DNA from: Halomarina salina
GTDB taxonomy: Archaea; Halobacteriota; Halobacteria; Halobacteriales; Haloarculaceae
NCBI RefSeq assembly: GCF_023074835.1
Contig: NZ_JALLGW010000001.1
Coordinates: 1,984,001-2,048,000, forward strand
DNA: 64,000 nucleotides
Reading direction: 5' to 3'
Shown: piece by piece, positions 10,961 to 61,255 of the stretch
Numbering within the stretch: position 1 is the stretch's first letter
Layout: each line of letters starts with the position of its first letter
Notes under the pieces: model-generated
Database searches by the model: none
The model's input: the letters and a program-made list of their open reading frames with translations, nothing else
Told to the model about the DNA's origin: nothing
Position numbers and translations under genes: made by a program

Positions 10961-11213
10961 GCCCACCGACGTTACCGTCGACGACCACGAGAACGAGCGC
11001 GTCTATCTCGGCTACTCGCTCTTAAAACATGAGAACGCTATCCAAGGCGAGGCGTCAATCATTCGGACGACTGACGAGCCCGGTGAGTCCGAGGTCGTCT
11101 CGGAGTTCGAAAATGGGCGTATCCCGAATGGCTACTACGAGTTCGTCCGTCGCTCGCTCGTCGAGCAGTGCAAGCGGACTGCTGAGTACTATGAAGACGA
11201 CCCGGATACCTGA
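10905..11213 (+). CDS. Unknown protein, possibly the frame-shifted C-terminal part of the preceding gene
   Basis: The convincing protein sequence starts around base 10950 (REPTDVTVDDHENERVYLGY) and runs 85 residues, rich in Glu/Asp and with EYYEDDPDT at the end. The only in-frame ATG before that is 10905, which lies 56 nt inside the preceding gene, in a part of the frame that looks like shadow sequence. No start sits at the natural place. Adding one CG unit to the tract at 10937-10949 would fuse it to the 153-residue protein upstream in frame. It is either a separate gene with an overlapping start or the tail of a frame-shifted gene. Confidence 0.5.
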   Translation: MVATNSSRTGIARARYGREPTDVTVDDHENERVYLGYSLLKHENAIQGEASIIRTTDEPGESEVVSEFENGRIPNGYYEFVRRSLVEQCKRTAEYYEDDPDT

Positions 11214-11255
11214 GCGACCCGACCGTTGATATCGTCCGCGTACTAACACGAAACC

Positions 11256-11711
11256 ATGGTCGAACCGCCCAGTCCGTCGCCGCCGGCCGCGGTCGATGAA
11301 TCGATACAGAACCTCCTGGAAGCGCTCACGGCTAAAGACGACGCCTGGTGGGACCAACTGGCCGAACGCGCGGAGGACGACCCGCGGCTGACGGTTCGCC
11401 GTCGCCCACCGACCCACCTCACTCGGCTGGAGGACCCACCGGCTGTCCCGCTCGCTGCCGACCGTCCCGAAGACCTCGTGTGGCTGGAGTGGGTGACGTG
11501 GGACGACGATTCACCGGTCGAGCACGACCACTATCATCACCCGCTCGGGCACGTCGCACCCGATATCGACTGCCATCCCGCTGACACCATCCGCCCACCC
11601 GTCGTCCTCACCCGTATGCCCAGAGCCGACGAACTGGGAGCCGACCCGTGTCCTGAGTGTTGGCCCACTGACCACGCCGAGCCGACGATTCGCGGAAACG
11701 GAGACCGATGA
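11256..11711 (+). CDS. Unknown acidic protein, 151 aa
   Basis: I do not recognise it. It has a Trp-rich centre (AWWDQLAERAEDD, then LVWLEWVTWDDDSP), a His cluster (EHDHYHHPLGH, residues about 89-99) and one CPEC near the C terminus, which could together bind a metal. The stop overlaps the next start in an ATGA (11708-11711), so it is coupled to a small membrane protein. Confidence 0.55.
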   Translation: MVEPPSPSPPAAVDESIQNLLEALTAKDDAWWDQLAERAEDDPRLTVRRRPPTHLTRLEDPPAVPLAADRPEDLVWLEWVTWDDDSPVEHDHYHHPLGHVAPDIDCHPADTIRPPVVLTRMPRADELGADPCPECWPTDHAEPTIRGNGDR

Positions 11712-35957: not shown

Positions 35958-36030
35958 GGGGCCGTGGGGTAGCTTGGTATCCTCGGCGGATGGGGTCCGT
36001 CGGACCTGAGTTCGAATCTCAGCGGTCCCA
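35958..36030 (+). tRNA. tRNA-Pro (anticodon GGG)
   Basis: The acceptor stem GGGGCCG pairs with CGGTCCC (36023-36029) plus discriminator A. The anticodon stem GGCGG/CCGTC encloses loop ATGGGGT, giving anticodon GGG. The T arm is TGAG-TTCGAAT-CTCA. No intron. A TATA-like cttaatc around 35,926 is about 30 nt upstream. Its 3' end is the insertion site of the element that follows, and the gene stays intact. Confidence 0.9.
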
Positions 36031-36032
36031 TA
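36016..36032 (+). repeat. Attachment site attL (tRNA-Pro 3' end)
   Basis: ATCTCAGCGGTCCCATA here is repeated exactly at 61239-61255, next to the integrase at the other end. The site covers part of the T arm and the acceptor 3' strand, the usual integration target for archaeal tyrosine integrases. Confidence 0.9.
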
Positions 36033-38775: not shown

Positions 38776-41700
38776 ATGCAAATGAGCGTATTACCGGGTT
38801 CCTTCCTTTTGATCTTGACTGCTCTATTGCTATTCTATATATACTCCCGCACAATAAGACCTATTCTCGCTTCAAATCGCTGGGCATTCCCACCAACCAG
38901 TTCTCTGCGGATTAGAGTTTTCCAACGGAGAATCATAGACCGAGGGCTGTGGAGTACAATTACCGGGATAATCCCAATAACTCCTCTTTCAACGTACTTG
39001 AGTTTTATTTGGGTGATTCCGCTTTCTTTAGGATTGGTATTTTCTCTCGCGTATTTTGAATATCCTGGGGAACTGCTGATCTATGGTAGCATTGAGGCAG
39101 GCTGGCAAGCCCAGTTGACGATTACCAGCCTTAGCTTTGTGGTGCTAATATTCTTGCTTGAACAAATTAACCGCAGCAGGTACCGGGAGGGCGTTTTGCG
39201 TAGTTTCCTTTCCTCATCGAGGGTAATGCCGGTATTGTACTATACGCTTTCTGCGTCAGTAATTCTTACATATTTGACATATTATCATTCGCCAGAGAAC
39301 TCTCAACCCCTGTTCCTTGACGCTACATTTTTCTTTCTCGTAGGTACAATCGTAGCAATCGGATATGTTTACTATCGGGCTGTTCGCCTCGTCTTTTCTG
39401 ATTTGCTCGAAAAGCTAACGATTCAACAGATAAATAAAGGAATCAGGCTCCGAGCCATGGACAGAGAGCGAGTCCAGAACTCAGAATCCATAATCCGAGA
39501 TCGCTTACCTGAAAGCGTCCATGTAAATAATCCTCCAATTCGAGCTGACCCAAATCAGACGGTCAGAAGTTATGACGCAAATGAAACTGGACTAGACGGG
39601 TACGTCGTTGACATAGATATCGACCGCCTATCCACTGCTATCAGCCAAGCTAAGGATTCGCTCGGCGAATCAGATGACTTATTCGTAAACTTGAAATTAG
39701 GGCTTGAGATGCAGCGAGGAATCAACTTATTGTCTGTCTATTCTGACAGTACGATTGCTCCGTCCATTCCGTCGGAGGTAATCGAATCCACCCAGGAAGC
39801 CATCTACTGTTCAAAATCTCTTCCTTGGAAGACTGGTGATTCGATAGTCGAGAAGAATATGTCTCATATTAGCGAGGAAACACGCAGAGCAATCACCGAA
39901 AGCAATCCTGTAGAGGTTGAGGCCAATCTAGAACGTTACTCGCTCTTGCTAGAGTCCGCATTGGAATTAGAGCAAGGTTCATTCGTCAATAGTGACGAGG
40001 CCTCAAAGATAGTTGACGGCCACGTCGATTCGATACTCCGGGAAATATATCGCATCATTGAAGCGGTCGCTGAGAGCGGTGTAACCGAAATAGTCACCGC
40101 AGTCCGAGCTGAGATTTTCAGATTTGCTTTAAAGTTTCATCGACGACGAGAGCCGTCACGGTTCCAAAGAACCGTTGGGTTGTATAATTCATTTTATCGG
40201 AACCTCAGTGCTAACCCGAATGTAGACTCAGAAGCGTTGAGAAGCCTACTATATAGCGTTGACAATCTTAGCACGTCTATTTTTGCTTCTCTGAAAGATG
40301 CTGACACGCCAAAAGATGCAGAATCGGTTGGAAAAAACATCGCTGACTTCTATGAGGTCGTCGACGACATGCTCAGATCAGCATTGCAATTAGGAGACGG
40401 AGAGACCTTCAATAATCTCTGGGAGTTAGGTCAGATTGGTTCCTATCGTGTTTCCGATTACCGTGGAATAATCGATCGTACGAGTGCGGAATACGATCAG
40501 GAATTGAGGAGCAGTTTAGTCACTCTCGTTCATGAATTGAGCAATGATACGATAAGCCAGATACAAGATCAGGGGGAAAATAGCGGTGGCGAGGACCTTT
40601 TGGGTAGACTCCCCGATTTTCCTAAGCTCGTGCGGCTTCAAAATCGACTTATCACTGCCGAAATCCAAATAGAAGTAGCCCAGTCAATACGCGATAATTT
40701 CAAAAAGATTCAATTTGTAGCTGCTTCTCATGCTTATAGGATGCAGCAGGTGGGAGATCTTGAGCCCACAGAGTTCTCTAAAATTTGCCAGACATCGTTG
40801 AGTCAGTATGACGTGCACGGATTGATCGACGGATACACTCTGGCAATCTCTAAAGCACCCCACGGGATGAGTAAGTGGAATTGGAATGACTCTAATGCAT
40901 TCAAAAATGCCTGGGTTGAGATGCCCTCTGATGATGAGGTTCTTGGCGAATTCTTTTGCTACATGATGTTGATTCTGATTGACCCCGATGAGTACGAATT
41001 AGACGGGATTACTGAATACAATAATCCGTTGGCAGAAGTTGAACCCAAGGAAAGAAAACCACCAAACCTTCGCTCTATTATCTCAAATATAGAAAAAGAA
41101 GATATTGCGGTGGAACTACTGAGCAGCGCCGACAAATTTGAATTTGAAGAACGACGCCGTATTCTCCAGGTCATGAACACAAATGCAAGGAAAATTCTCA
41201 AAGAGCGTAACCGTAAAGCGATAGCTGATGCCGATATTGATGATGACCTTGTTGCAGAGTTCAGAGATACTTATGAAGAGGAGTTCTGCCAGAGATTTAT
41301 ATTAAGGACAGTTCTGGATGATTTGGGGCAACTCAATGTCGTTGAATATGATAAGGATACAAGTCCGCTTCCTTCTGGCTACTCCGTCAATTATCCCAAG
41401 ATTGCATTCTTACCAAATCATGAGGTGATAACCCATATTGGACGTGATGCTCAGAGTCACGCCGACACAATAACGTCAGCATGGATTTCTGACAATCGAG
41501 ATAATATCAACGAAGTGGAGATGGATCCCGAGAAACCTTTGCCAGAAAAGATTGCGGAGGTTGTCAGAAGTGAGCCAGCAAATCCGAACGATTCTCATGC
41601 ACTAATCCTTTCGGGAGTTCGCGCGCGGGCAGCAGTGAGAGATAGCGACTATTTCCAGAGAGGTGATGGGTCGACCGCTGACAGTGGGGTGTTCACAGTT

Positions 41701-41982
41701 GACAATAACGAAATCCCAACGTACTATGGTGGTGTCGAAAAGTACGATTTCCTGTTACTGATTGGCGAACTAAGCGCACTGGAGCTGGTTGAGTATCGTA
41801 ATAATGGTCAAGTCGTGGATATTGAAGTGGATGCGATTTCACACGAATCGAACTCGGGTGATGATTCAGATAGAAGCGAGGACAACATAATAGACAGGGG
41901 CCAATACGTACATTTACAAATCAAACACTATGCTGAATTCAGTACAACGAGTTACTTTGCAGTAGGTGGTAAAGTGGATTAA
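38776..41982 (+). CDS. AT-rich 1,068-residue membrane protein with large cytoplasmic domain, unknown
   Basis: I do not recognise a family. About five membrane helices occupy residues 5-215 (for example VLPGSFLLILTALLLFYIY, FIWVIPLSLGLVFSLAY, LFLDATFFFLVGTIVAIGYV). The remaining 850 residues are soluble, mostly helical and acidic, without a P-loop, HKD, PD-(D/E)XK or HNH motif that I can find. Codon use differs sharply from every neighbour: many A/T third positions, AGA/ATA codons and AT-rich runs, so it is recent foreign DNA, perhaps from a low-GC source. Start ATG 38776 (ATG 38782 also possible). Its place on a defence-loaded element suggests, but does not show, a defence or exclusion role. 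Confidence 0.7.
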   Translation: MQMSVLPGSFLLILTALLLFYIYSRTIRPILASNRWAFPPTSSLRIRVFQRRIIDRGLWSTITGIIPITPLSTYLSFIWVIPLSLGLVFSLAYFEYPGELLIYGSIEAGWQAQLTITSLSFVVLIFLLEQINRSRYREGVLRSFLSSSRVMPVLYYTLSASVILTYLTYYHSPENSQPLFLDATFFFLVGTIVAIGYVYYRAVRLVFSDLLEKLTIQQINKGIRLRAMDRERVQNSESIIRDRLPESVHVNNPPIRADPNQTVRSYDANETGLDGYVVDIDIDRLSTAISQAKDSLGESDDLFVNLKLGLEMQRGINLLSVYSDSTIAPSIPSEVIESTQEAIYCSKSLPWKTGDSIVEKNMSHISEETRRAITESNPVEVEANLERYSLLLESALELEQGSFVNSDEASKIVDGHVDSILREIYRIIEAVAESGVTEIVTAVRAEIFRFALKFHRRREPSRFQRTVGLYNSFYRNLSANPNVDSEALRSLLYSVDNLSTSIFASLKDADTPKDAESVGKNIADFYEVVDDMLRSALQLGDGETFNNLWELGQIGSYRVSDYRGIIDRTSAEYDQELRSSLVTLVHELSNDTISQIQDQGENSGGEDLLGRLPDFPKLVRLQNRLITAEIQIEVAQSIRDNFKKIQFVAASHAYRMQQVGDLEPTEFSKICQTSLSQYDVHGLIDGYTLAISKAPHGMSKWNWNDSNAFKNAWVEMPSDDEVLGEFFCYMMLILIDPDEYELDGITEYNNPLAEVEPKERKPPNLRSIISNIEKEDIAVELLSSADKFEFEERRRILQVMNTNARKILKERNRKAIADADIDDDLVAEFRDTYEEEFCQRFILRTVLDDLGQLNVVEYDKDTSPLPSGYSVNYPKIAFLPNHEVITHIGRDAQSHADTITSAWISDNRDNINEVEMDPEKPLPEKIAEVVRSEPANPNDSHALILSGVRARAAVRDSDYFQRGDGSTADSGVFTVDNNEIPTYYGGVEKYDFLLLIGELSALELVEYRNNGQVVDIEVDAISHESNSGDDSDRSEDNIIDRGQYVHLQIKHYAEFSTTSYFAVGGKVD

Positions 41983-42242: not shown

Positions 42243-44744
42243 TCATCGCTCCCTGGTCAAGCGTCTGATTGCTTTCATCGGATCCTTCCCAGTGAAGATT
42301 GTATTGAAAGCTCCTCGCCCGAAGCTGCCAAATGCCTCATAACCTTTCGCCACCGCTTGTCCTTGAGTGACGAGCTCGGCCAACCGCGTCAACTCCTCCT
42401 CGTCATAGGCTCTCGCTAGTCGGTCAAAGAGGGGTTCTTCAGAATCATACTCGACGAGTTCGCGATACCAGATCGTGAACAGGAGGAAGGTGAACCCACT
42501 CCGATCGCACTCTGGAATGGATATCTCCGCACCAGTGACATCCTCATAGAGCGTAACAAGCCGCTCGAATCGCGCGTCGTGTGCTTCGAGCTGTGCTTCC
42601 ATCCATGAAGGATTCAGCAACTGTTCTGCAATATAGGGATCTGCAGGCATGAACCAATCATCGTCTCGGGGAGAGAACTGCCGGTAGATCGTCTGTGAAT
42701 AGTAGAACGGGTCTGCTATGTCTGATTCCCGGCCCAACCATCGGAGCAGTGTGAAGCCAAGCGCGGGTCGAATGAACAGCACATCAAACGCTTTCTCCCC
42801 GTCGACGACCTGCTTTGGGTTAATCTTGGCACTGGATAGGACCGTCGAGAGATACGATGAAACCCTAGGTACAACCTGCTCGTCGTGGAGCCGTTCGAGT
42901 ATCTCAGTGCAAATATCGGCGAGCTTCTCCGTGTTGAGCTCCGTCTCGACCCCGTCCGGAAGCTGGTCATCGATGTACCACCGAAGGAGGCCGAGCTCAC
43001 ACCCCGCCCAAACGTTCGAGAGATGATCGACGAGGAGCTGTGCACCTTCGGGTGTCGACTCTGTCTTAAGCGTCTCATCGATCGCTTTGAGCGAGAGTGA
43101 GAGGCCGTCTTTGACCTGTAGATGTCGCGCTCGAGCGTTGTTCGAACTGCTTCTCGCTGATCCACCCCCCCAGTCTGGTTCACCTCTCGGGATTCCAGTC
43201 TCGTCTGTTGTGGCGATGAGCTGATGCTGGTTGATGGATCGAACCGCTCGGGAGAGTGCCATCCCTGCAGTCCCCTGCTCACCAAACAACAGTGATTCGA
43301 AAAGGTCTTGCATTCCCTCTCGACCACCAGTTCGGCGCATATTCCCCTCCTCCCGGGAGTTCGGAATCGCTTCCGTGGTCACCTGCCGGTAGTTCGAATA
43401 CTCCCTATCGGCGGTTTCGAGTCGAACGAGCTCGTCTTCCCATCCCGATTCGATGTTGAGTGTGAGGATGTCGCCTGCAGTCTGATGATCGGTTTGTTCA
43501 TCGCCAGTGTTTATCGGTTCCCACTCGAACCTCACCGTTGGTTCACCGCTACGTGCAGTCAGTTTTACCGACGCTTCCGTTTCGAGTCCGTCTGCGACTA
43601 TCTCAAGCTGGTCGCCATTCGTCTTCGATGTTAACCGTACATCCAGGAGGTCGATGTTCTGCTCGACGATATCGGACGAGCCTTCAAACGAGGGGTACGG
43701 ACGAGTCTGGATGTCCTTCGAATCGACAGGGTCTCCAATCTGCGCCGGGAAGGCACCGGCACCAAGCAGCGGACTGGTGTTCCCTGTAAAGTACATGGAA
43801 TTCGGTGCGTGACGGATGATCCCCGCCTCGATGTTACCGGAATCCGCTGTGTTGACGAGGGCGGAGCCAGTCATATTTGGACTCCCGAACAGACAGGCAC
43901 TCCCCCAGTTTCCTTCGACTATGAGGAACTTGGCGTGGACCCATCGCCCGGTCGAGTGTGAGAGATGGTGGAGAGCCGTGCCTCCACCGAGGTGCTCGAA
44001 CACGGCATCGAGATCGACGTGTGTCGACTCAGGATCCACGACGACGTGATATTCTTCGGCACCCAGCGTATCGGCTATCTCACCGAGTGGTGTGCCCGTG
44101 CTGAAGAACGGGGCGGCGAGCCACGCCTGCTCGATTTCGCCGACTGAATCGGCGAGCTGTTCGATGATCGGATTCTGAAGGTTATGGACGAACTGGGCGT
44201 CCGGTTCAGCTCGTGGTTCAATATCTACTACCCACTCGCTCACTTCGAGCAGCTGGCGTACCTGCGTCCATGTATCTCGGCCCGTCACATACTCGTCAGC
44301 GAGCGTCTCAAGGAAGGTTCGAATCGAGCGAGCGACGTGTACCTCCGCTGCACCAGCTGGGTCATCTGACTCGTACCCTGGCGTAATCATCGCACTGGTC
44401 GCGAGCTGCGCTGCAGTCGTGTACTCGTTTAGCGTCACGTTGGCTGAACTAACGACGAACGAAAGCTGCTCCTCACTTGCCGTGAGCCCAACTTTCGGGT
44501 GAAATACCTCCGTGGCCGAGATCGGCTCGAGATAATACTCGCCGCTGAGGTCGTACGGTGCCCAGTCCTCTCTGGTGATGGCACGATGGTACCGATCCTG
44601 ATCCATCAGCACGACTGGCCGGGCGACCCCAGATTTGTGGAGCTGTTTGAGCAGGTATGTGCGAAAGAACGACGGGTCGAACGGATACGTCGTCATGGCC
44701 GCATACTCCGCGACGTCCGGCTTGAGTGCGTTCGAGAGGTTCAC
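42243..44744 (-). CDS. Phospholipase-D-superfamily (HKD) nuclease-like protein, 833 aa
   Basis: The N-terminal 310 residues hold two PLD half-sites: EVFHPKVGLTASEEQLSFVV then SSANVTLNEY (H-x-K plus Ser/Asn, residues about 80-108), and RWVHAKFLIVEGNWGSACLF then GSPNMTGSAL (residues about 267-300). The Asp of the classical HxKxxxxD is not obvious in either, as in many nuclease-type members. The following 500 residues are unknown. The last 120 are helical and basic at the end (KDPMKAIRRLTRER). Its ATG (44744) overlaps the stop of the upstream 627-residue gene in an ATGA. PLD-type proteins are nucleases or lipases; in defence systems such as DISARM a PLD protein takes part, but the partner here is different. 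Confidence 0.72.
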   Translation of the reverse strand: MNLSNALKPDVAEYAAMTTYPFDPSFFRTYLLKQLHKSGVARPVVLMDQDRYHRAITREDWAPYDLSGEYYLEPISATEVFHPKVGLTASEEQLSFVVSSANVTLNEYTTAAQLATSAMITPGYESDDPAGAAEVHVARSIRTFLETLADEYVTGRDTWTQVRQLLEVSEWVVDIEPRAEPDAQFVHNLQNPIIEQLADSVGEIEQAWLAAPFFSTGTPLGEIADTLGAEEYHVVVDPESTHVDLDAVFEHLGGGTALHHLSHSTGRWVHAKFLIVEGNWGSACLFGSPNMTGSALVNTADSGNIEAGIIRHAPNSMYFTGNTSPLLGAGAFPAQIGDPVDSKDIQTRPYPSFEGSSDIVEQNIDLLDVRLTSKTNGDQLEIVADGLETEASVKLTARSGEPTVRFEWEPINTGDEQTDHQTAGDILTLNIESGWEDELVRLETADREYSNYRQVTTEAIPNSREEGNMRRTGGREGMQDLFESLLFGEQGTAGMALSRAVRSINQHQLIATTDETGIPRGEPDWGGGSARSSSNNARARHLQVKDGLSLSLKAIDETLKTESTPEGAQLLVDHLSNVWAGCELGLLRWYIDDQLPDGVETELNTEKLADICTEILERLHDEQVVPRVSSYLSTVLSSAKINPKQVVDGEKAFDVLFIRPALGFTLLRWLGRESDIADPFYYSQTIYRQFSPRDDDWFMPADPYIAEQLLNPSWMEAQLEAHDARFERLVTLYEDVTGAEISIPECDRSGFTFLLFTIWYRELVEYDSEEPLFDRLARAYDEEELTRLAELVTQGQAVAKGYEAFGSFGRGAFNTIFTGKDPMKAIRRLTRER

Positions 44745-46624
44745 TGCTCTCCCCCGCTTCGGAGCCGGCTGATATACGTGTGGCCAGCGCCAGTCACAAT
44801 CGGCTCCTCGTTTTTGTACCGGACGAGATTGCAGTCCTGGAGCATCGTCAGCATCCGCCCAAATCTGAGATTCTGCGTGCGCGGAGCGCCTGGCTCCGCT
44901 TCCGCTCGGAACGTGTCCGTTTCGAGGTCGTGGGTGAACGCGAGGGCGATGGTTTCGCCAGCGGAAAGCCGATCGTGGATGACGTACTGATGTGTCTCGA
45001 GCACTCGGTCAGTGAGTGTTTTGAACGCCGCACTGGCTATCCCGTTCTTCGATGCGTGACGTTCGAGGTGATCTGATAACGCTGGGAGCGACGACCGCTG
45101 TCGGCCGTACTGCTGTCGTAACAGCGTGTCAACGTCTGGGTATGATGTGGTGAGGTTCCGATACCGCTGGTCGACGAGCATGAGTGCCACCAGTCCTTGC
45201 CCTGTCGCCTGTCGCAGGAGTGGTTCAGCCGCTGCTTGCGTTCCAATCTGTGCCAGTTCCCTCCATGTTTCGTCCAGCTGGAGCTTAAGGGCTGGGAGTG
45301 TCACTTGGTCTCCGTCTATCGGGTGCCACCCCGTCTTGACTACCGACTTGAGCCGCGTTCTAAGTTCACCAACCTCCGGTGCTGAGAGCCCGGCTTCATT
45401 CTCGGAGATTGCTGGCTCAACCGAGGTCATTGGAGCTTCACCGTTGAGCGCCAGTTCGCGGGCCAGCACTCCTCGAGGGAGGGCTTTTCCTCCGCTACTC
45501 GACCGCGCCGCGAGCGCGTCATCTACCGTCGCTGAGAGCTCATCTGTATCAGTGATGACTGCCTCTAAAGACCTTCTCGTGACTCCTAACCCCTCCGCGA
45601 GGTCCAGATAGCGATAGAGGACCGACAGCAGTGATCGGAGTGCGTATGCTGCGTACCCTTGGAGCCAGTATGCCCGAGCAAGTACTCGGAACTCCTCGAA
45701 CACCGCCTGGTCCGTCTGGTCAAGTGCGACGCGTTCATGTCCAGACTCCAATAGATCCAGCACTCTGAGTATGAACAGTCCCCACCCCCGTCGTAGCACG
45801 TGGACGTTGCTCGCGATGTCTTCGCGCTGTTTCTGGTCGTGATGGACTCCCCCGATGACGTGTTCCGGGTATGAGAGGGCTGGTATGCCGACTTTCTCCC
45901 CAACCTCAGTGAGTACCACGTCATTCCGGCTGGAGTCCCATTCGACGAATCCGAGGAAAAGGCGCTGGACTGCTTCTAACTGCTCAGCAAACTCCTCCGG
46001 TCGACAGAACGCCGCTTGGAGTGAGACGTACTCGCTGAACTCGTCTAATTGTGCGTGGGTGACTTCCTCCTCGAGGATACAGGAAAGCAACTCGTCAGCC
46101 ACGGGCCCGATATGGTGGTCGACAGCATCCGCGACTGTGCGGCCTGCTGCGGTAAGGCCCAGCTGGGTCCCCGTCCTTCTGAGGTATATTTGACGAAGAT
46201 TGCTCTGGATGTTGTCGATGGCATACGAGCTTTGGAGCAACTCGATCTCACTCAGGTCGACTGGGTCTTCATCCCAGAGCTCTTCTCGACCAATTCGTTG
46301 GCCCCCTGTCATTCCCCGAACTCCTTCGGGTGGGTCGTGTGTCTGCTGGTACCGATAGCTTGCCATAGCCAAGATCTCCTCGAACGTTCGAAGATGCGCT
46401 TTCTGTTCGGCTACCGACTCGTCGCTGGCCTCTGGGTGGTTTGAGATTTGGTGTGTCGCCCATGCAAAGCCGGAGAGGTAGCCGCCACGAAGGTAGACGT
46501 CGGTGGTGATCCCTCTTGCAAGGGTAGTCGCCAATCCGTTGCGGATGGAATCGGCCCGGAGTGGTGTTCGGGGTGCGCCCTGCTTATCAAGGCGACTTGT
46601 CCACTGGGGGTCGAGGGAGGACAT
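44741..46624 (-). CDS. Unknown 627-aa protein coupled to the PLD-like gene
   Basis: No known domain found. It is largely helical, has segments that look like winged helices (YLRRTGTQLGLTAAGRTVAD at about residue 148 and a last one ending TGAGHTYISRLRSGG), and a linker near residue 395. It contains no P-loop or obvious nuclease triad. The overlap with the PLD gene implies one complex or one pathway. It may be the sensor or DNA-binding subunit of a two-gene system; this is inference. Confidence 0.65.
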   Translation of the reverse strand: MSSLDPQWTSRLDKQGAPRTPLRADSIRNGLATTLARGITTDVYLRGGYLSGFAWATHQISNHPEASDESVAEQKAHLRTFEEILAMASYRYQQTHDPPEGVRGMTGGQRIGREELWDEDPVDLSEIELLQSSYAIDNIQSNLRQIYLRRTGTQLGLTAAGRTVADAVDHHIGPVADELLSCILEEEVTHAQLDEFSEYVSLQAAFCRPEEFAEQLEAVQRLFLGFVEWDSSRNDVVLTEVGEKVGIPALSYPEHVIGGVHHDQKQREDIASNVHVLRRGWGLFILRVLDLLESGHERVALDQTDQAVFEEFRVLARAYWLQGYAAYALRSLLSVLYRYLDLAEGLGVTRRSLEAVITDTDELSATVDDALAARSSSGGKALPRGVLARELALNGEAPMTSVEPAISENEAGLSAPEVGELRTRLKSVVKTGWHPIDGDQVTLPALKLQLDETWRELAQIGTQAAAEPLLRQATGQGLVALMLVDQRYRNLTTSYPDVDTLLRQQYGRQRSSLPALSDHLERHASKNGIASAAFKTLTDRVLETHQYVIHDRLSAGETIALAFTHDLETDTFRAEAEPGAPRTQNLRFGRMLTMLQDCNLVRYKNEEPIVTGAGHTYISRLRSGGEQ

Positions 46625-47959: not shown

Positions 47960-49282
47960 TTAGTTTGAAAACTGCTCGTTCCGTAGTTCTGCCTTCTCGA
48001 TGAGCTCCTGGTTGAACGCGTCACCATCGCGCCCCTGGTGACGACGGCGGTGGCAATTGGGACAGAGCGCGATGACGTTCTCGGGGTCGTCCGGCCCACC
48101 GTCTGTGAGGCGCTTGAGGTGGTGGACTTCGAGGAATGGCTGACCACGTTTGTTCTTGAACGGTGCCGGTTCTCCGCATCCCTGACAGACGCCATCGGCG
48201 GTTTCGAGCGCGAATTCGCGGACGACCTCCGACCGTTTTCGGCGCTTTCCACCGCTTGAGGTACTGTTGGTCGTGGCAGTTGACGTCGACGAGCGCGGTG
48301 AGCTCTGCTTACCCTTCTGGAACAACTCCTCTGCGGACATCGACCCGAGTGTCCGGTCGCCGATGTCGACGTCGGTCCCTCCGGACGCGACCAACCGGAA
48401 CCGTATCGCTTCTCGCATCCGACCGTCGGCGTCCGCAAGTGTGTCGACTTGGTGGCTATCGTACTCGAACTCGCCAACGTAGGTGACGATCCACGGTAGG
48501 TCCGTATCCTCGAAAAGGTGAACCGCCTCTCCGTTCTGCTTGTGGTCCCGGAGGGCCTTGTTCCCGTTCTCCATTGTCATATCCCCCTCTGCTCCCTCAC
48601 CGGAGTAGAGGAACGTATCGTCGTCGAGGAATTCGTCTTTGTAGCCGTAGTCACTCCCCGATTCGCCAGTGACGATGATGATGAACGGGTAGTCTGAGGG
48701 CTTGGCGATACCCTTGTAGCGCTCACCCTTGAGCACGTCGTGGATGAGCCACCGACTGTACGTCTCGCCCACCTCAAACGCACCTCTCTCGAACTCAAAC
48801 GCATACTCACCATCGGTTTCGGTGACGAGCTCCAGCGATAGCAGCCAGTCGAGGTGTTTCTGTACGACGCCTTCGGGAAGTGCATAATCTGGGAACACAC
48901 TGCGGAGTCGGCCCTGTATCTCACCAACAGTGCGGTGACCCGATGCTATCGCTCGGGCAATCTCCCGGAACCCATCAACCGCGGTCGCCAGTCCCTCATA
49001 GATGACTGCGGGGTTGTCGTGTTCGTAGTACGCTGCGCCCTTGTTGGTGAGTTCGTACCACCCCTCAGACTCACGAATCAAGCCGATGGATACCAAGAAC
49101 GCGATGTTTCGGCGGACGGTGGTCTCTGTTCCTGCAGGGGTGCTGTCGAGAATCCACTTCATTAGCTCCGTTTCATTCGGCTCTGCGCTCTTGATGAAGC
49201 CGAGTGTGTCGTGCAGGTACGCCATTCGCCCGTTGACGCCGCCGAAGAACCGTTCGGTTGTCATCCGCGTTTGGTCGGCCAT
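47960..49282 (-). CDS. Type IV (modification-dependent) restriction endonuclease, winged helix-SRA-like-HNH, 440 aa
   Basis: Residues 1-165 contain two winged-helix segments (TTVRRNIAFLVSIGLIRES and VVQKHLDWLLSLELVTE). Residues about 195-295 match an SRA/YDG-type base-reading domain as found in ScoMcrA-like enzymes: YGYKDEFLDDDTFLYSGEGA, GDMTMENGNKALRDHKQNGE and AVHLFE. Residues 366-415 are an HNH nuclease: CQGCG (366-370), EVHHLKRL with H387-H388, N402, and CPNCHRRRH (407-415). SRA-HNH proteins cut DNA with modified cytosine and protect against modified phage genomes. The protein is complete. ATG 49282 is the likely start; ATG 49264 is an alternative. Confidence 0.85.
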   Translation of the reverse strand: MADQTRMTTERFFGGVNGRMAYLHDTLGFIKSAEPNETELMKWILDSTPAGTETTVRRNIAFLVSIGLIRESEGWYELTNKGAAYYEHDNPAVIYEGLATAVDGFREIARAIASGHRTVGEIQGRLRSVFPDYALPEGVVQKHLDWLLSLELVTETDGEYAFEFERGAFEVGETYSRWLIHDVLKGERYKGIAKPSDYPFIIIVTGESGSDYGYKDEFLDDDTFLYSGEGAEGDMTMENGNKALRDHKQNGEAVHLFEDTDLPWIVTYVGEFEYDSHQVDTLADADGRMREAIRFRLVASGGTDVDIGDRTLGSMSAEELFQKGKQSSPRSSTSTATTNSTSSGGKRRKRSEVVREFALETADGVCQGCGEPAPFKNKRGQPFLEVHHLKRLTDGGPDDPENVIALCPNCHRRRHQGRDGDAFNQELIEKAELRNEQFSN

Positions 49283-51506: not shown

Positions 51507-51784
51507 TTGGTCTGCCGGTGATAGCTGGCACAGGCTTGGCATACCAGCCCGAGGCGCTACGCTACCAATCAAGTGGCGAAACCCCGACACTGTCCTGAGA
51601 GAAACTAGCGGTATGCAGCATTGTCTCTTTGGGCCCAGGACTCGAGATAAAGAGCCCAAATTGTTTCCACACTGGAAGAGAGCCGACGTTCTCTATCGGA
51701 GTAGAAACGACCGAGCTCGTCTATTTTAGAGTGAGTCATTCCAGGAGGCAGTTTTTTGCCCTTACCACCAAGTTGTTTACAAGA

Positions 51785-54613
51785 ATGAGCCAGTCTTCGG
51801 AGGGCCTTTCTACGCTATTACGACGTGTTGTTGAGGACTACCCGATTGAGCAGATTGGCAAGGGAATTTCACCTCATGTCACCCGTGAAGATATTGAGAC
51901 GCGGATTCCGGAGCGGATCCAGGAACTCCTTCAGAATGATGATCTCGTCATCAAATCCTCTGCCGGGAGAGGGCGGTGGACAGCCATTCCCTGGGTTGCG
52001 ATTATGGATCCTCGGGAAACGGATCGAATCCAAGATGGAATATACGTCGTCTATCTGTTCGAACCACAGGAAAACCGTGTTACACTGACGCTCAATCAAG
52101 GTGTGACAGAACTGAAGGACGAACTCGGGACAAAGGCCGCCCGTCAACGCCTGCGAGAGACTGCAAATGGTTTCTACGAAAACCTCTCAATAGAAGGATT
52201 TCAGGCAGGACCGATCGATTTCCCCCATGCCTCCTCTCGAAACGAACTTTATGGGCCGGGTACGATCACTTACAAGCGGTATTCGTTAGAATCGATACCT
52301 GACGATGACAGCCTTCGTGATGACCTTGAAACACTCGTGAGCACATATCAAGAGCAGATCTCGCCAGCTCATACTCCGAACGTCTACCAATGCCCGATCA
52401 AGGGAGGAGGGATAATGGAGCAGAATTACGAAGATACGGTTCTCGAGGGAGTCAGCAGAGAGCGCCTTGAAGGGATCTGTGATATCCCGGTCGAGCACGA
52501 GGATCTCCGTGTCTGGGGCAACCGATCATCTACGGCCGCTAACCCCGGTGATTACCTCTTGTTTGCGGAACGAGATGGTCCCAGTGGCGGCGAATATACG
52601 GTGTTGGCTCGGATCGCTGATGCAACAGTGTTCGATGCTGAAACAGCACGTGAATTCAGCGAAGCTGTTGGCTGGACAGACGAGAGCGAAACCGCCTTCC
52701 CACATAAGATGTTCCTCGAACCACTCTACAAAGCCAAACTCAACCGGGCGGACTTCTGGGATCTTATGGGGTTCAAAGGGTGGCCCAACGACTCCTACAG
52801 CCGACTCGATTTTGAGCGTCAAGAGTCATCGTTCTTTTCGAAGTATAGGTCGGTCACCGACTTCCTCGAGAAGATCAAAGGTGAGCAAATATACCCCCAG
52901 TCTAGCACGCTAAATGACTACTGGCAAACGATCGATACACAACAACAGAAGGCTGAGACCTTCCTGGCTAACCCGACAGAAGGGTCCTTCAGAGCATTAC
53001 TCAATTCGCTCCCATGGTATGTCAGCCGATGGACCGACTCGAAAGTGGAGAAGGTGTTCGAGGAAGCAACGCCACATGAGGTAGCCGATATCATCCAAGA
53101 TTCGGCTGACGAGGGCAATATCGGACCGGTACTCAACTTTGGTGAACTGGGTGTAGGGGCCGCGTCTGAACTCCTAGCCTCAGTGTCGCCGGAGAAGTTC
53201 GCTCGACTGAACAAAGAGGTCGCTGACGCAGTAGAGGCCATGCGATTCGACCGCCCGAATCCAAATACTACGTCGCCAAGTCGATATGATACGTTTCTGG
53301 ACGATGTCGAACAAATCCTCGAGCAGTATTCACTTCGGGAGTTCGTTTGGGAGATCCCCGACTGGGCCACCGACCTACAAGTCGCTACCTACGCGTTCCA
53401 CTTACATGAGACGGGGGAGCTGGATCTGACTGAACTCGTCCCCGTTGATCCGTTCGAGGAGCTTGAGTCTCTGCTCGAACAGGAGGCTTCACAGGCTCAT
53501 CTCTATCGGCAAGCTGCTGCTCATTTGGTCGCAGGAAAGAACGTGGTCTTTTACGGACCACCAGGCACTGGGAAAACAAGAGCAGCAAATCTTCTATCCG
53601 ACGCGCTCTGTGCGTCGAAATCTCTCGTCACTGCGAACGCAGAGTGGTCAAACTATCAGGTCGTGGGTGGCTACCGACCAGTGGGTAACTCGTGGGAAGC
53701 AGAAGCTGGGTTCCTGACCAGTGCTGCAAGTAAGTGTGTGGAGACGCTACGACGCGACACGCCACAGCCGTCGTGGGTGATCATCGACGAACTGAACCGG
53801 GCAAATCTTGACGAAGCGTTCGGCGACGTGTTCACGCTGCTCGACCTCGACTACCGGACGACTGAACCTCTTTCGTATGCCAATCGCGAGGTCTACGTTC
53901 CGCTGTCGTTTCGTATCCTTGCAACGATGAACACATACGACCAGGCACAGCTCTTCTCGCTGGGATACGCTTTCCGACGGCGATTCGCCTTTGTCAATGT
54001 GCCATCGTTACTTGACAATCAGAAGCCCCCCGAAGGATCGACCGAGGATGGAATTCCGTCTGAAGCCCCTGAATTGAATTCTAGTGATGAGAAGCTGGTT
54101 GCGCTCGTGGAGAAAGCAGCAATCGATGCTATGGCTACTGGTGGAAATGGTGGCGGTGTCACCTCGTCTGATGTTGCGCCGATCTTCCCCGAATTCGCTT
54201 CCCGAAAGACACTGAGCGATGCGCTAAACACGGTCAGTACCAAGCCGGAGCTACAGAGGAATGGATTGGATGCCATCCAGACACTCATCTACTTCTGTAT
54301 TGAGGTCACTGACCAGGACGTCGTCGATATTGGCCAGGCACTATTGATCGACGCCACGAAGTACCTAATCGCACATCAGCTTCTATTCCCTGACGAGACC
54401 TCACGAGAGGCACTTGATGATGCGCTCGTGGCCTATATTGTGCCGCAATTTGAGCATTTCATGTCGGAACTTCGTCGGGCTGAGACCATCGATCGAGATA
54501 GCGATGCGAAAGAGCGTTTCAATCGGATCATCCAGCTGGCGCGAGATCTGGCGTTGCCGAAAACGGCGACCGTGTTGGCAGAGGCTGGCGAGTCAAAACA
54601 GATCCTCTCGTGA
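51785..54613 (+). CDS. mcrB: McrB-like AAA+ GTPase with MrcB_N and EVE-like domains, 942 aa
   Basis: The motor subunit of an McrBC-type modification-dependent restriction system. Residues about 1-215 are the MrcB_N (DUF3578) DNA-recognition domain (WTAIPWVAIMDPRET, DGIYVVYLFEPQENRVTLTL, NQGV). Residues about 240-330 look like an EVE/PUA-type domain (NPGDYLLFAERDGPSGGEYT, then VLARIADATVF), which in other proteins reads modified bases. The AAA+ domain has Walker A GPPGTGKT (591-598), Walker B WVIIDELNRAN (664-674) and the McrB signature MNTYDQ (715-720; MNTxD in the family), then the arginine finger AFRRRF. ATG 51785 was chosen since the upstream extension has no family resemblance. The next gene overlaps its end. 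Confidence 0.88.
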   Translation: MSQSSEGLSTLLRRVVEDYPIEQIGKGISPHVTREDIETRIPERIQELLQNDDLVIKSSAGRGRWTAIPWVAIMDPRETDRIQDGIYVVYLFEPQENRVTLTLNQGVTELKDELGTKAARQRLRETANGFYENLSIEGFQAGPIDFPHASSRNELYGPGTITYKRYSLESIPDDDSLRDDLETLVSTYQEQISPAHTPNVYQCPIKGGGIMEQNYEDTVLEGVSRERLEGICDIPVEHEDLRVWGNRSSTAANPGDYLLFAERDGPSGGEYTVLARIADATVFDAETAREFSEAVGWTDESETAFPHKMFLEPLYKAKLNRADFWDLMGFKGWPNDSYSRLDFERQESSFFSKYRSVTDFLEKIKGEQIYPQSSTLNDYWQTIDTQQQKAETFLANPTEGSFRALLNSLPWYVSRWTDSKVEKVFEEATPHEVADIIQDSADEGNIGPVLNFGELGVGAASELLASVSPEKFARLNKEVADAVEAMRFDRPNPNTTSPSRYDTFLDDVEQILEQYSLREFVWEIPDWATDLQVATYAFHLHETGELDLTELVPVDPFEELESLLEQEASQAHLYRQAAAHLVAGKNVVFYGPPGTGKTRAANLLSDALCASKSLVTANAEWSNYQVVGGYRPVGNSWEAEAGFLTSAASKCVETLRRDTPQPSWVIIDELNRANLDEAFGDVFTLLDLDYRTTEPLSYANREVYVPLSFRILATMNTYDQAQLFSLGYAFRRRFAFVNVPSLLDNQKPPEGSTEDGIPSEAPELNSSDEKLVALVEKAAIDAMATGGNGGGVTSSDVAPIFPEFASRKTLSDALNTVSTKPELQRNGLDAIQTLIYFCIEVTDQDVVDIGQALLIDATKYLIAHQLLFPDETSREALDDALVAYIVPQFEHFMSELRRAETIDRDSDAKERFNRIIQLARDLALPKTATVLAEAGESKQILS

Positions 54614-54615
54614 CG

Positions 54616-55971
54616 ATGCGTGTCGAGACGTATGGACGGTACAGCCAATCTGATCTTGGACTTGATGACGAGGAGTGGGGCGCACTCCAGCACTACATAG
54701 ACACTATCACCACAGCTCTCGAAGACGAGGTCACCAATGCTAGGGGTGTTGAAGGTGTTGAAGAAGCCCCACCATCGATTGATAGCAACGAATTCAACCC
54801 TGGCGGCTGGGTAGGGCTGTTCCCAGGCGACGTAATCGTCGTCGCGAGTCATCTCTCTACCGATGAATACGAAGTGCTTCTGCAGGAGACTCAAAAGTGG
54901 GTCGAAATCATAGGTGCGACGACGTTTGAAGCTGCATTCCCACTCTCCCCGGAGTTGCTACTCGATTTTCGAACACAGCTCGCTGCCTACAGTAAAGCGC
55001 TCATAGAGCTGTCCGAAAGCCTGCGAAACCAACGTTTACCGGTGGAAGTACAGCGCACGCAGAACCGCGGGCTCGAGCCACAAGGGCGACCCCTGTTTGG
55101 AGAGACCATGCGTGAAGCGGCCCGTGGCTCGCAGCAAGTCGTCAGCGAAGAGGTCAAGTTCAGCTTTGACACTGTTCTAAACCACCTCCTCGTCCGGTTC
55201 CATATCGATCTCCTCACCGAAATGCAGGCTCTATCGGAGAGTTACGCCTATTACGAGTCAGCGTTCGCATCTCAAGTTTCGTATCACGAAGACTTCGTGA
55301 ATACAGGTATCCCGAGTCGGTTCGTCGATAAAGCTGTCGAGCGTGACTTCACTGCGCCCGACGTGATCGCTGAAGCACGACGAGAGGCATCTGGTTCGAT
55401 GGCGGAAATCATCGACCTTTGGGAAGCGTTCCAGCGGGATATTGGCATGGAACTCTCCCTATCACGCAATCTAAATACGGCAGTCAAGCCGATTAGCAAA
55501 CTATACGAGCTCTGGTGTCTCGGCATCTTGCTGGACACACTCACTGAAGTCTGCGGACGGCCACCGAAGAGTCCGGAGTCGATCAACCGTGAGTATCGGT
55601 TCGGCGATGGTGTGCGTCTCCACTACAACCGGTCCCTCGGTCGATTCAGCCAGTACTTCAAAGACGAACTTGGGATTCGGAATGGGCCAGGGCAACCCGA
55701 TTTCGCTCTCGAGATCGATGGAGAGATTGCTTGGATCGGAGATGCCAAATTTAAGACGGAAGTGAGGCTTGCAGACTATCGTCGCTTCCTCGCCTACGTT
55801 GTTGACTTACTCCACCCTGACAAACCGAGTTCAATTCTCTACGCCTCTGAGGAGTCCAAGGGTCAGAAGCGCGTTCGGGATTACGATATTGATCATATCG
55901 CCCTTCGCCCCAATACTAGAGTGAAAGCTCGCTCGGACCTACTGAACGCCTTTGAGCTACTCGTGGGGTAG
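54616..55971 (+). CDS. mcrC: McrC-like nuclease subunit (DUF2357 plus PD-(D/E)XK), 451 aa
   Basis: Partner of the McrB protein. The first about 300 residues resemble DUF2357 (helical, with EVQRTQNRGLEPQGRPLFGE and the RSL-type region LYELWCLGILLDTLTEVCG). The C-terminal nuclease has the motif QPDFALEIDG (D362) followed by WIGDAKFK (D376-A-K378), the PD-(D/E)XK pattern. GTG 54610 overlaps the mcrB stop by 4 nt; ATG 54616 comes 2 nt after it. Either start means translational coupling. Confidence 0.85.
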   Translation: MRVETYGRYSQSDLGLDDEEWGALQHYIDTITTALEDEVTNARGVEGVEEAPPSIDSNEFNPGGWVGLFPGDVIVVASHLSTDEYEVLLQETQKWVEIIGATTFEAAFPLSPELLLDFRTQLAAYSKALIELSESLRNQRLPVEVQRTQNRGLEPQGRPLFGETMREAARGSQQVVSEEVKFSFDTVLNHLLVRFHIDLLTEMQALSESYAYYESAFASQVSYHEDFVNTGIPSRFVDKAVERDFTAPDVIAEARREASGSMAEIIDLWEAFQRDIGMELSLSRNLNTAVKPISKLYELWCLGILLDTLTEVCGRPPKSPESINREYRFGDGVRLHYNRSLGRFSQYFKDELGIRNGPGQPDFALEIDGEIAWIGDAKFKTEVRLADYRRFLAYVVDLLHPDKPSSILYASEESKGQKRVRDYDIDHIALRPNTRVKARSDLLNAFELLVG

Positions 55972-56218: not shown

Positions 56219-57076
56219 ATGCGAGAGGATCGTGTAGCGGCCGTCTCAGAAGCTATTGCAGACATCGGTTACGAGGGAATCGTCGCTTTCGATCAGTTCG
56301 AACCTGAGTACACCACTATTGAACGACTCTACGAGGAGTTCAGAAATACTGACCGAGTTCAGCTGCTGGCCATCTGTGCGACGACACAGGACTTTCAGCT
56401 TAATGGAGACGCCCAAGCATTCTGGCAGACACTTACTGACGTGGCGCTTGAATACGGCTCTTTGGACTCGCTCACCGATGTAGAAGCGATATTATGGAGG
56501 TTCATGGAGGAACCGGTCAATGCCCGGTTCACGAGTATGAAGACCACTCGGCTCAGGAAATTACTCAAGTCTGAATTCCCTGAATGGTTCTTAGCGAGTC
56601 ATCGTGATGTGGACCCGTTCGAGGTGTGGGAACGACTTGCGGACGGCATCGAGAACAAGAAGCGAAAGAAGACGGTGGTCCTCTCGATGAAAATCTACGA
56701 CATTGCCCACCTCATCGACACAGGCGAGTATCTGCAATTTCCCTCGGATATCCCAATCCCGTGTGACCTCCAGGTCGAGCGGGTCTCAGAAACCGCGGGG
56801 ATAACGGTCTCCACGAAGACGGGTGACGTCATGGCTGCCTGGGGGGAGGTAATGGAACGAGTTAGTGAGGAGGTCGGCCGTCCCATCTCGTTGCTCCGCA
56901 TTGACTCAATCATCTGGCAGGCCGGACAAATTATCGGGGACGCAGGTGAGAATCTCGAGCAGAGCCGCCTAGCGCTCGACGCTCATTTTCAGGAAGTCGG
57001 TCTTGAGGATCCCGAGCGCACCGCTCTTGCCAACGAACTAACAGCGTGTATACAATCGCACCCAGGACCACGATGA
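56219..57076 (+). CDS. AGOG-like DNA N-glycosylase/lyase, 285 aa
   Basis: The protein matches archaeal 8-oxoguanine DNA glycosylase (AGOG, helix-hairpin-helix superfamily) in several places: GDAQAFWQTLTDVALEYG (residues 63-80), NARFTSMKTTRLRKLLK (101-117), KTVVLSMKIYDIAHLI with the candidate catalytic Lys 158 (151-166), DIPIPCDLQVERV with candidate catalytic Asp 183 (177-189), and RIDSIIWQAG (227-236). Typical AGOGs excise oxidised guanine and cut the strand. This one is not next to repair genes. Its stop overlaps the start of a PD-(D/E)XK gene by ATGA, and that gene is coupled to a DUF6884-like gene. The divergence and context suggest a changed target, possibly a modified base in invading DNA; that is inference. 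Confidence 0.75.
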   Translation: MREDRVAAVSEAIADIGYEGIVAFDQFEPEYTTIERLYEEFRNTDRVQLLAICATTQDFQLNGDAQAFWQTLTDVALEYGSLDSLTDVEAILWRFMEEPVNARFTSMKTTRLRKLLKSEFPEWFLASHRDVDPFEVWERLADGIENKKRKKTVVLSMKIYDIAHLIDTGEYLQFPSDIPIPCDLQVERVSETAGITVSTKTGDVMAAWGEVMERVSEEVGRPISLLRIDSIIWQAGQIIGDAGENLEQSRLALDAHFQEVGLEDPERTALANELTACIQSHPGPR

Positions 57077-57687
57077 AGCGCTCGAGCTATCGAATTCAAC
57101 AGCTGGCGCAGGCCTTCGCACACACAATCCCGATCGTCGACGAGACAGCCACCCATAGGAGGTGGAGGCCTGGCATCGGCCCCTTCGAAGAGGAGCGCCA
57201 ACTCGAACAGCTCCGAGAGGAGGTAGAGAATAGGGGACTGATTGAGGTGACAATCAACTACGAAGAACCCTATCCGGACTCCAGCCGCCGTGTCGATCTG
57301 CTCTTGGATGATGGTGGCAACCAGTTACCAATCGAGGCGAAGCTCATCCGATTCCGACGGGACAACGGCAATATCGATCCGAATATGTACAAGAGCGTGT
57401 TCAGTCCGTTTCCGGAGCGGAGTTCGTCGTCGATGCTGACGGACTGCCAGAAATTAGCCGAGTCCGGATTCGACTTTCCTTGTGGAGTACTTGGACTCTA
57501 TTACGAGTCCAACGAGGAAGCGTACGAGGAGCTCCGTGCGGACCGAATCGCAGAGAAATTCACCCTCGATGTAGGGTACTGGTACGATATTCCGATCGAA
57601 CCTATTTGCGTCGAATCGTTTAGCGGCCTCCGCCATCCACATCACCAACAGGGGGCAGTCATCGCCTGGGAACTCACAGAACCATGA
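57073..57687 (+). CDS. PD-(D/E)XK nuclease-like protein, 204 aa
   Basis: The motif RRVDLLLDDG then NQLPIEAKLIRFRRDNG (Asp, spacer, Glu-x-Lys, residues about 75-95) fits the PD-(D/E)XK restriction-nuclease fold, preceded by a helical segment with GPFEEERQLEQLREEVE and followed by conserved-looking LGLYYESNEEAYEELRADRI. Size fits a single nuclease domain. ATG 57073 overlaps the upstream stop (ATGA), and its own stop overlaps the next start in the same way. Likely the strand-cutting member of the three-gene operon. The nuclease call rests on one motif. Confidence 0.65.
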   Translation: MKRSSYRIQQLAQAFAHTIPIVDETATHRRWRPGIGPFEEERQLEQLREEVENRGLIEVTINYEEPYPDSSRRVDLLLDDGGNQLPIEAKLIRFRRDNGNIDPNMYKSVFSPFPERSSSSMLTDCQKLAESGFDFPCGVLGLYYESNEEAYEELRADRIAEKFTLDVGYWYDIPIEPICVESFSGLRHPHHQQGAVIAWELTEP

Positions 57688-58127
57688 CGCGAGAAATAGG
57701 ACTCGTCAGTTGCGTCAAAACCAAACAGGATAGGGCAACGAAACCCCGCGATCTCTACACATCTCAGTACTACCGAAAGATGCGGTCGTACGCCGAAGAG
57801 GAACACGACGAGTGGTGGATTCTCTCGGCGAAACATGGCCTACTCGATCCTGATGGACCACCGGTCGAACCCTACGATGAGGCGCTCAGAGAGGCAAGCG
57901 TCGCGGAAAAGCGTGACTGGGCGGAGAGAGTGTACCAAGAACTCGAAGCAGCCGGGCTTCTCGAGCCAGGAGTGCATCTTGTGATTCACGCAGGGGAAGA
58001 CTACTATGGCCACCTCATCCCGAAAATCCGGGATTTGGAGGGTACGAGTTTTGAAATACCGACAAAGGGCCTTTCAATCGGTGAAACGGTTTCATGGTAC
58101 ACGGAGCAAGAGGACAGACAGATCTGA
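57684..58127 (+). CDS. DUF6884-like protein, 147 aa
   Basis: The sequence pattern LVSCVKTKQDRATKPRDLYT, WWILSAKHGLLDPDG, VEPYDEAL and HLVIHAGEDYYGHLIP follows the DUF6884 family as I remember it, small proteins found in phages and mobile elements. The ILSAKHGLL...PY part has a distant look of the YaaA family, which binds DNA; that similarity is only a theme. No biochemical role is known to me. It is the last gene of the ATGA-coupled glycosylase-nuclease operon. Confidence 0.65.
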   Translation: MTREIGLVSCVKTKQDRATKPRDLYTSQYYRKMRSYAEEEHDEWWILSAKHGLLDPDGPPVEPYDEALREASVAEKRDWAERVYQELEAAGLLEPGVHLVIHAGEDYYGHLIPKIRDLEGTSFEIPTKGLSIGETVSWYTEQEDRQI

Positions 58128-60063: not shown

Positions 60064-61185
60064 ATGAGTAGCGATCTCGTACCCCTTTCGCCGGAAGAAG
60101 CAGAGGAGATGTGGCTCAATCGTCTGCAGTCCGAGCGTTCTGAGGAAACGCTCGATAGCTATCGATATCGGATTGATCAGTTTGTCTACTGGTGCGAGGA
60201 TGAGGGAACAGACAATCTGAACCATCTCACGGGCCGAGATATATATCAATTCGACGCCGCACGTCGAGCTGAGGACCTCGCTATAAGTACGCTGAACAAC
60301 CAACTGGGTACGCTTCGACAGTACCTCGAGTTTTGTGTCGACGTAGATGCTGTCCCGCCAACGCTTCCCGCGAAGGTCGAGGTTCCAAGGCTCGCAAACT
60401 CAGCTGCAGTAAATGAAGATAAGATCACGTCTGAGCGAGCAGAGAATATCCTCACCCATCTAGACCGGTATGAATACGCATCGCGCGACCACGTGATCTT
60501 CGCGCTGATGTGGCACACGACGGCTCGACTTGGTGCAATTCACGCATTAGACGTCGAAGACTGTTACCTCGATGCAGAGGACCTCAAGCGTCTCGGCCAT
60601 GCTGATGACATCACCGAGGAGGACATAGAGCGAGCAGAGCTCCCCTTTATCTACATTCGTCATCGGCCAGAGTCGGAAACAGAACTGAAGAATAAAAATG
60701 AGGGCGAGCGCCCCGTGATGTTAAGCCCCGATGTAGGTGATCTACTCCGAGACTACATCAAAGTCTCGCGAATTGAAGCTACAGACGACTACGGACGAAA
60801 TCCGCTTCTCTCGACAAAGCGAGGAGGGAGAAGGATGTCCAAAAGTGCGATTCGATCGCGATGCAACATCCTCACTCAACCTTGCCGGTTTGGAATTGAG
60901 TGTCCACACGGCCGAGACGTGGATACCTGCGAGGCTCGGGAGCATGGGTATGAAAGTCGCTGTCCATCAGCTCGCTCCCCACATCCGATTCGTACCGGAG
61001 CAATCACTCACCATATCGACTGTGGGTGGCCACCGTCCGTACTAGCTGAACGCGTGAACGCAACGCCGGATGTCATTCGAAATCACTACGACCACCCTGA
61101 ACCGCTGAAGCGAATGGAATCGCGTAGAAAGCATCTCGGTAAGCTGAACCAGGACAGCACCAATTCTGGGAGCGATAGCGAATAA
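60064..61185 (+). CDS. Tyrosine integrase of the element, SNJ2-like type, 373 aa
   Basis: Catalyses recombination between the tRNA-Pro 3' end and the element. Core-binding domain: EEMWLNRLQSERSEETLDSY at about residue 15 to about 100. Catalytic residues: R155 in HTTARLGAIHALD, H307 and R310 in SPHPIRTGAITHHID, and Y342 in IRNHYDHPE. An extra Cys-rich stretch before box II (CRFGIECPHGRDVDTCEA) is typical of this haloarchaeal type. ATG 60064 starts the conserved protein (MSSDLVPLSPEEAEEMWL); the frame is open further upstream. It ends 54 bp before attR. Confidence 0.9.
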   Translation: MSSDLVPLSPEEAEEMWLNRLQSERSEETLDSYRYRIDQFVYWCEDEGTDNLNHLTGRDIYQFDAARRAEDLAISTLNNQLGTLRQYLEFCVDVDAVPPTLPAKVEVPRLANSAAVNEDKITSERAENILTHLDRYEYASRDHVIFALMWHTTARLGAIHALDVEDCYLDAEDLKRLGHADDITEEDIERAELPFIYIRHRPESETELKNKNEGERPVMLSPDVGDLLRDYIKVSRIEATDDYGRNPLLSTKRGGRRMSKSAIRSRCNILTQPCRFGIECPHGRDVDTCEAREHGYESRCPSARSPHPIRTGAITHHIDCGWPPSVLAERVNATPDVIRNHYDHPEPLKRMESRRKHLGKLNQDSTNSGSDSE

Positions 61186-61238: not shown

Positions 61239-61255
61239 ATCTCAGCGGTCCCATA
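61239..61255 (+). repeat. Attachment site attR
   Basis: Exact 17-bp copy of the tRNA-Pro end (ATCTCAGCGGTCCCATA), without the rest of the tRNA. Chromosomal genes resume just beyond. Confidence 0.9.

Follow-up and report, generated by a model that had tools for sequence, protein, structure and literature searches.

An AGOG-family glycosylase gene joined to a nuclease candidate and a DUF6884 gene on a haloarchaeal mobile element: a possible base-excision restriction module

Three genes lie in tandem on the forward strand of the window, the 64,000-nucleotide stretch of Halomarina salina DNA that was analysed. Gene A (56219..57076, 285 aa) encodes an AGOG-family HhH DNA glycosylase/lyase, gene B (57073..57687, 204 aa) a PD-(D/E)XK-like nuclease candidate and gene C (57684..58127, 147 aa) a DUF6884 protein with a YaaA-like fold. 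All three are real genes, and ATGA overlaps at 57073 (A/B) and 57684 (B/C) join them, which bears out the coordinates, strand and overlaps of the three-gene operon described in the original prediction. A PADLOC run on the trio returned matches for C alone (PDC-M57A, plus a weak DpdC).

A ~25.2-kb element integrated in tRNA-Pro carries the trio as cargo, as judged from a drop in GC content, a repeat of the 3' end of the tRNA gene and an integrase gene inside one repeat end. GC falls from ~0.69 to 0.45–0.59 between 36 and 61 kb of the window. The target, tRNA-Pro (GGG), was found by ARAGORN at 35958..36030 (+); a 17-bp exact repeat marks the two att sites, with the left copy (36016..36032) formed by the tRNA-Pro 3' end and the right copy at 61239..61255. 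Just inside the right end lies the element's tyrosine integrase (60064..61185, +; PF02899, 8.2e-11), in agreement with the earlier claim of a mobile element. The McrBC neighbour was likewise borne out by Pfam domains: an McrB-like AAA+ subunit with an MrcB_N domain (51779..54613, +; PF12102, 7.3e-41; AAA_5, 3.8e-18) overlaps by 4 bp the gene for an McrC-like subunit (54610..55971, +; weak PDDEXK_7 match, E 0.027), and 248 bp separate the latter from gene A. For a further neighbour described as an SRA-HNH system, the HNH nuclease stood (47960..49282, −; PF01844, 6.1e-13), with a winged-helix N-terminal part, but Pfam finds no SRA domain. The element also encodes an 833-aa PLD-like protein (42243..44744, −; PF13091 at 2e-4, below the cut-off), and PLD-like proteins adjoin A in one other locus (L090) and a decayed A in another (L088). 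A 627-aa ORF without a Pfam match (44741–46624) overlaps the PLD-like gene, and the two may form a two-gene defence unit. Another ORF inside the element (38776–41982, 1068 aa) has unusually low GC (0.45) and no Pfam match.

Gene A scores 89.1 bits against the Pfam AGOG family (PF09171, curated cut-off 26.1; E 3.8e-25) and also matches solved AGOG structures in the PDB, which upholds its original description as AGOG-like. The catalytic Lys140/142 and Asp172/174 of AGOG correspond to invariant K151 and D183 in A. The 8-oxoG pocket, too, is largely retained (Trp62/69, Trp212/222, Asp208/218 and Lys149/147; in A W69, W233, D229 and K158). The residue that distinguishes 8-oxoG from G in AGOG, Gln24/31, is different. 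This glutamine contacts the N7-H of 8-oxoG, and published work calls it strictly conserved and essential for activity (PMC9638937; PMC3397491), but it is Glu30 in all 8 aligned A homologs, and the relatives of A in Archaeoglobaceae share the glutamate. In addition, the E59/R176 salt-bridge pair of Pab-AGOG, also called strictly conserved, is Q66/Q185 in A, and Leu replaces the stacking Phe in 5/8 homologs, A itself included. From these alignments, A likely retains catalysis while its base reading has changed. 8-oxoG may still be its substrate, since the rest of the pocket is kept and a glutamate could accept N7-H.

For gene B, no Pfam match rose above threshold, and the best weak family match was to the SfsA endonuclease-like domain (E 0.054). 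Across 23 homologs, D75, E88 and K90 are invariant and E40 nearly so. A structure model (pLDDT 88.8) has the element order helix-strand-strand-strand-helix-strand and places D75 on strand 73–80, E88-x-K90 on strand 83–93 and E40 at the start of helix 40–54; alignment and model together give the acidic-Lys motif in an alpha-beta-beta-beta-alpha-beta core. Structural neighbours included SwaI, OkrAI, BglII and HincII at Z 5–6.4, intermixed with unrelated folds, and Foldseek returned no match with E below 1e-3. Considering the invariant residues in canonical order on a confident model, together with these weak nuclease links, we regard B as a candidate PD-(D/E)XK-like nuclease; the fold originally proposed for the middle protein is thereby supported in its motif residues and core order, while matches to known nucleases are weak.

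Gene C matches Pfam DUF6884 (PF21818, E 2.4e-39), as had been predicted. The CxxxK (C10, K14) and LSAxH motifs are invariant, including L47-S48-A49; the glycine of an LSAxxG-type motif is present in C and missing from some homologs. The model of C superimposes on YaaA (5caj_A) with Z 8.7 and rmsd 3.3 over 134 residues, and the next best match is at 6.0. YaaA stood out in this second comparison, Foldseek itself giving no E below 1e-3, and from the modelled structure we assign C the YaaA fold. Pfam's authors consider DUF6884 a YaaA-like family, and its Bacillus subtilis member YfjM was one of the proteins recovered on abasic lesions (PMC11701544). DpdC, which converts preQ0, a 7-deazaguanine, in DNA, has been assigned to DUF6884 (PMC11888242), although another paper assigns it to DUF328. 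C has the YaaA-like fold and CxxxK motif in common with DpdC and YaaA, but consists of one short domain that stands alone and has a glycosylase for a partner. A C homolog overlaps dpdA in Halorubrum tailed virus 29, of the genus Dpdavirus (L105 5986–7111).

Homologs of A are sporadic: matches were found in 9 of 391 Halobacteria genomes (absent from 382/391), and a search of 126 further genomes of the same family yielded no new A. A Natribaculum plasmid also carries one. Above its cut-off, the AGOG profile recovered only A homologs and one partial divergent relative from the 391 genomes, with no ordinary AGOG among them. In the glycosylase tree, halophile A sequences and those of Archaeoglobaceae form separate groups (support 99/97). 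Sporadic occurrence, profile results and tree separation together identify A as an accessory gene; the possibility that it is an ordinary host AGOG was rejected because no such gene was found in the Halobacteria genomes searched and the tree splits cleanly. Alignment scans of IMG/VR viral contigs with A and B found no homolog, a result that is neutral on defence.

A and C form a conserved unit across two archaeal classes. Among 11 Halobacteria loci of A, 7 have C no more than 3 kb away. The two genes are joined by ATGA in L086, adjacent in L085 (Halocatena) and convergent in L089; L091 has them 2.7 kb apart, and in L088 and L093 both have decayed. Three loci have A with neither C nor B (L087, L092, L129), and in L090 A has only a GIY-YIG neighbour. 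Outside Halobacteria, Glu-type AGOG occurs in Archaeoglobaceae (family f21), including Geoglobus ahangari and Archaeoglobus sulfaticallidus. There AGOG and DUF6884 genes stand side by side in 6/6 genomes that have both, each with a single DUF6884 gene, in arrangements that run from an ATGA overlap or plain adjacency to separation by two ORFs (one genome) and a DUF7664-AGOG-DUF6884 fusion in one 554-residue protein (L124); in a seventh genome, the Glu-type AGOG gene sits at a contig end. DUF6884 is absent beside the canonical Gln-type AGOG of L106 and beside the Glu-type genes of L126 and L127. By a simple uniform-placement estimate that ignores relatedness, the rough odds of such A+C adjacency by chance are below 1e-15 per class. 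The G. ahangari AGOG gene is split by one in-frame TAG (L123 9346–10149), and two of the AGOG-DUF6884 pairs are followed by a third gene of 240–251 aa with Cys/His motifs (L120 2655–3377; L123 10595–11350), the L123 copy of which has no Pfam match.

Other genes recur near A. HFX_2341/DUF6293, a regulator with a Csa3-like (CARF) N-terminal domain and a winged helix, of which genomes carry just 1–4 copies, lies no farther than ~1.4 kb from Glu-type AGOG in 6 of the 7 Archaeoglobaceae genomes (among them L119 11585–12394, L123 7286–8116, L124 7701–8516 and L125 1419–2204). It adjoins A in L087 (8435–9268) and L091 (11622–12401) and is 1.4–1.8 kb from A in L090 (7048–7851); none is found beside A in the window. 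Defence-type neighbours at other A loci include a type II methyltransferase, HsdS, a GajB-like helicase and an LmuB-like ATPase. The C gene of L089 is preceded by a 183-aa protein (10792–11343) that is convergent with A and has a weak BglII endonuclease match, possibly another nuclease in B's place.

Gene B has its own set of partners. It has matches in 47 genomes of class Halobacteria, and at ~10 loci B and C overlap or abut without A; like the A+C linkage, this one is read from gene order. At most of these loci the next gene is of GIY-YIG type, in one of three varieties assigned from Pfam (type 1), from a weak Pfam score together with the RefSeq name (type 2) or by eye only (type 3). A DpdA-like identity for this partner was considered and rejected on comparison with the DpdA of Halorubrum tailed virus 29. 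Three haloarchaeal plasmids have a 456-aa GIY-YIG gene immediately before B and overlapping it, in the position that A holds here (L131, L132 and L133, each 5616–7579), near McrBC in L131 and near BREX in L133; RefSeq names B in these operons a 'transcriptional regulator'. In Halocatena (L085), a B remnant is fused before C, and a GIY-YIG gene 72% identical to the 456-aa plasmid type follows A and C, while a different GIY-YIG type lies beside A in L090. These arrangements indicate that B and C take either A or a GIY-YIG protein as partner. An intact trio was found once, in this genome, among the 391 Halobacteria and 126 same-family genomes, and the only other trace was the decayed Halocatena copy. 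Since what recurs is A+C, B+C or B+GIY-YIG, A-B-C was rejected as a conserved three-gene system. The originally predicted coupling of a glycosylase to a nuclease-like protein, on an element of defence type, is supported at this locus but not as a conserved trio.

We propose, with a probability of about 0.48, that the operon is a base-excision restriction module directed against a 7-position-modified or oxidised purine and carried as defence cargo. A would flip out and excise a purine with a change at position 7 or close to it, and its catalytic lysine would then open the strand at the abasic site, as in AGOG. C would bind the abasic site or the flipped base, or would first trim the 7-substituent, and B would cut the DNA at or near the abasic site, so that a gap open to repair becomes a lethal break. 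We infer the antiviral purpose from the recurring partners, the sporadic mobile distribution and the restriction-type neighbours. As to the substrate, 7-substituted deazaguanine is an attractive candidate target given the glutamate change, the kinship of C with DpdC and the presence of preQ1 in a halovirus: HVTV-1 has ~30% of its G replaced by preQ1 (PMC6884629), so that a natural target exists. In a more specific form, which we consider unlikely, the pair of Glu-type AGOG and DUF6884 would be a glycosylase system against 7-substituted 7-deazaguanines in virus DNA (preQ1, archaeosine, amido-deazaguanine), with Glu30 binding a donor or cation of the 7-substituent and C converting or presenting the base, as BapA does for Brig3.

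The main rival is repair of oxidised bases, because A retains the greater part of the 8-oxoG pocket and its glutamate could accept N7-H. A would then excise 8-oxoG or a related oxidised purine, C would protect or process the abasic site and B would trim ends, the whole being an accessory fitness gene set riding mobile elements. The role of Escherichia coli YaaA as an oxidative-stress DNA-binding protein, the recovery of YfjM with abasic lesions (both PMC11701544) and the occurrence of the A+C pair in Archaeoglobaceae are all consistent with such a role, which we regard as possible but somewhat unlikely: the glutamine described as needed for 8-oxoG is the residue replaced, and a sporadic distribution, restriction-modification neighbours and the swapping of GIY-YIG partners are odd for repair.

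The gene pairs could also be read without a common pathway, with B+C a self-standing restriction-like unit of swappable partners upstream of which A landed by chance. The ~10 A-less B+C loci, the uniqueness of the intact trio and the loss of B from Halocatena with A and C retained point this way, but the two ATGA overlaps in the trio and the independent conservation of A+C, with a fusion in another class, make it rather improbable. The tree of C places A-linked C in a subclade with most B-linked C, not clearly as one clade. Finally, the module might maintain or edit modified DNA of the element or host, for example by removing misplaced 7-deazaguanine, and leave invaders alone. DpdC acts on 7-deazaguanine in DNA and the viral DUF6884 gene sits beside dpdA; however, no dpdA-type gene was recognised among the neighbouring genes scanned, and nuclease partners would harm self DNA, leaving this reading very improbable.

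Base-excision restriction has relatives among known systems. Anti-phage glycosylases have a precedent in Brig1 (PMC11078745) and Brig3-BapA (PMC13160076), in which attack on modified invader DNA by a glycosylase, proposed here, has been shown, and Brig3 likewise shares its operon with a partner that trims the base. Hydroxymethylcytosine bases are the target of both, whereas A is partnered with nuclease-like and YaaA-like proteins; the nearest structures to Brig1 are uracil-DNA glycosylases, whereas A is an AGOG (HhH) enzyme. PabI-family restriction enzymes also restrict through base excision plus lyase activity, but use a HALFPIPE fold and sequence-specific adenine excision that is blocked by methylation, while the trio has no methyltransferase. 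McrBC and modification-dependent restriction share the island, and probably the aim of attacking modified DNA, but the trio has no NTPase and would excise bases in place of translocation-coupled cutting. The anti-phage glycosylases cited are bacterial and the topic is young; if the proposal is right, an archaeal kind would unite an HhH (AGOG) enzyme with a YaaA-like protein and with nucleases that can be swapped, and would be conserved from Archaeoglobaceae to Halobacteria. By association, the fused AGOG-DUF6884 protein suggests a function for the uncharacterised DUF6884 family, and the one Gln-to-Glu change at the base-reading residue opens substrate specificity to a direct test.

Compared with AGOG itself (PF09171; Pae-, Pab- and Tga-AGOG), A belongs to the same fold family and shares the catalytic Lys and Asp and, in the base pocket, two tryptophans, an Asp and a second Lys, but has Glu for the N7-H-reading Gln, Gln/Gln for Glu/Arg and Leu for the stacking Phe, and is sporadic, mobile and in an operon with DUF6884 and nuclease-like genes. 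A second, divergent AGOG-like HhH family also occurs in Halobacteria (L095 9772–10764, L094 9125–9961, L096 9380–10222), and in L095 its gene converges with a C homolog that lies ~12 bp away.
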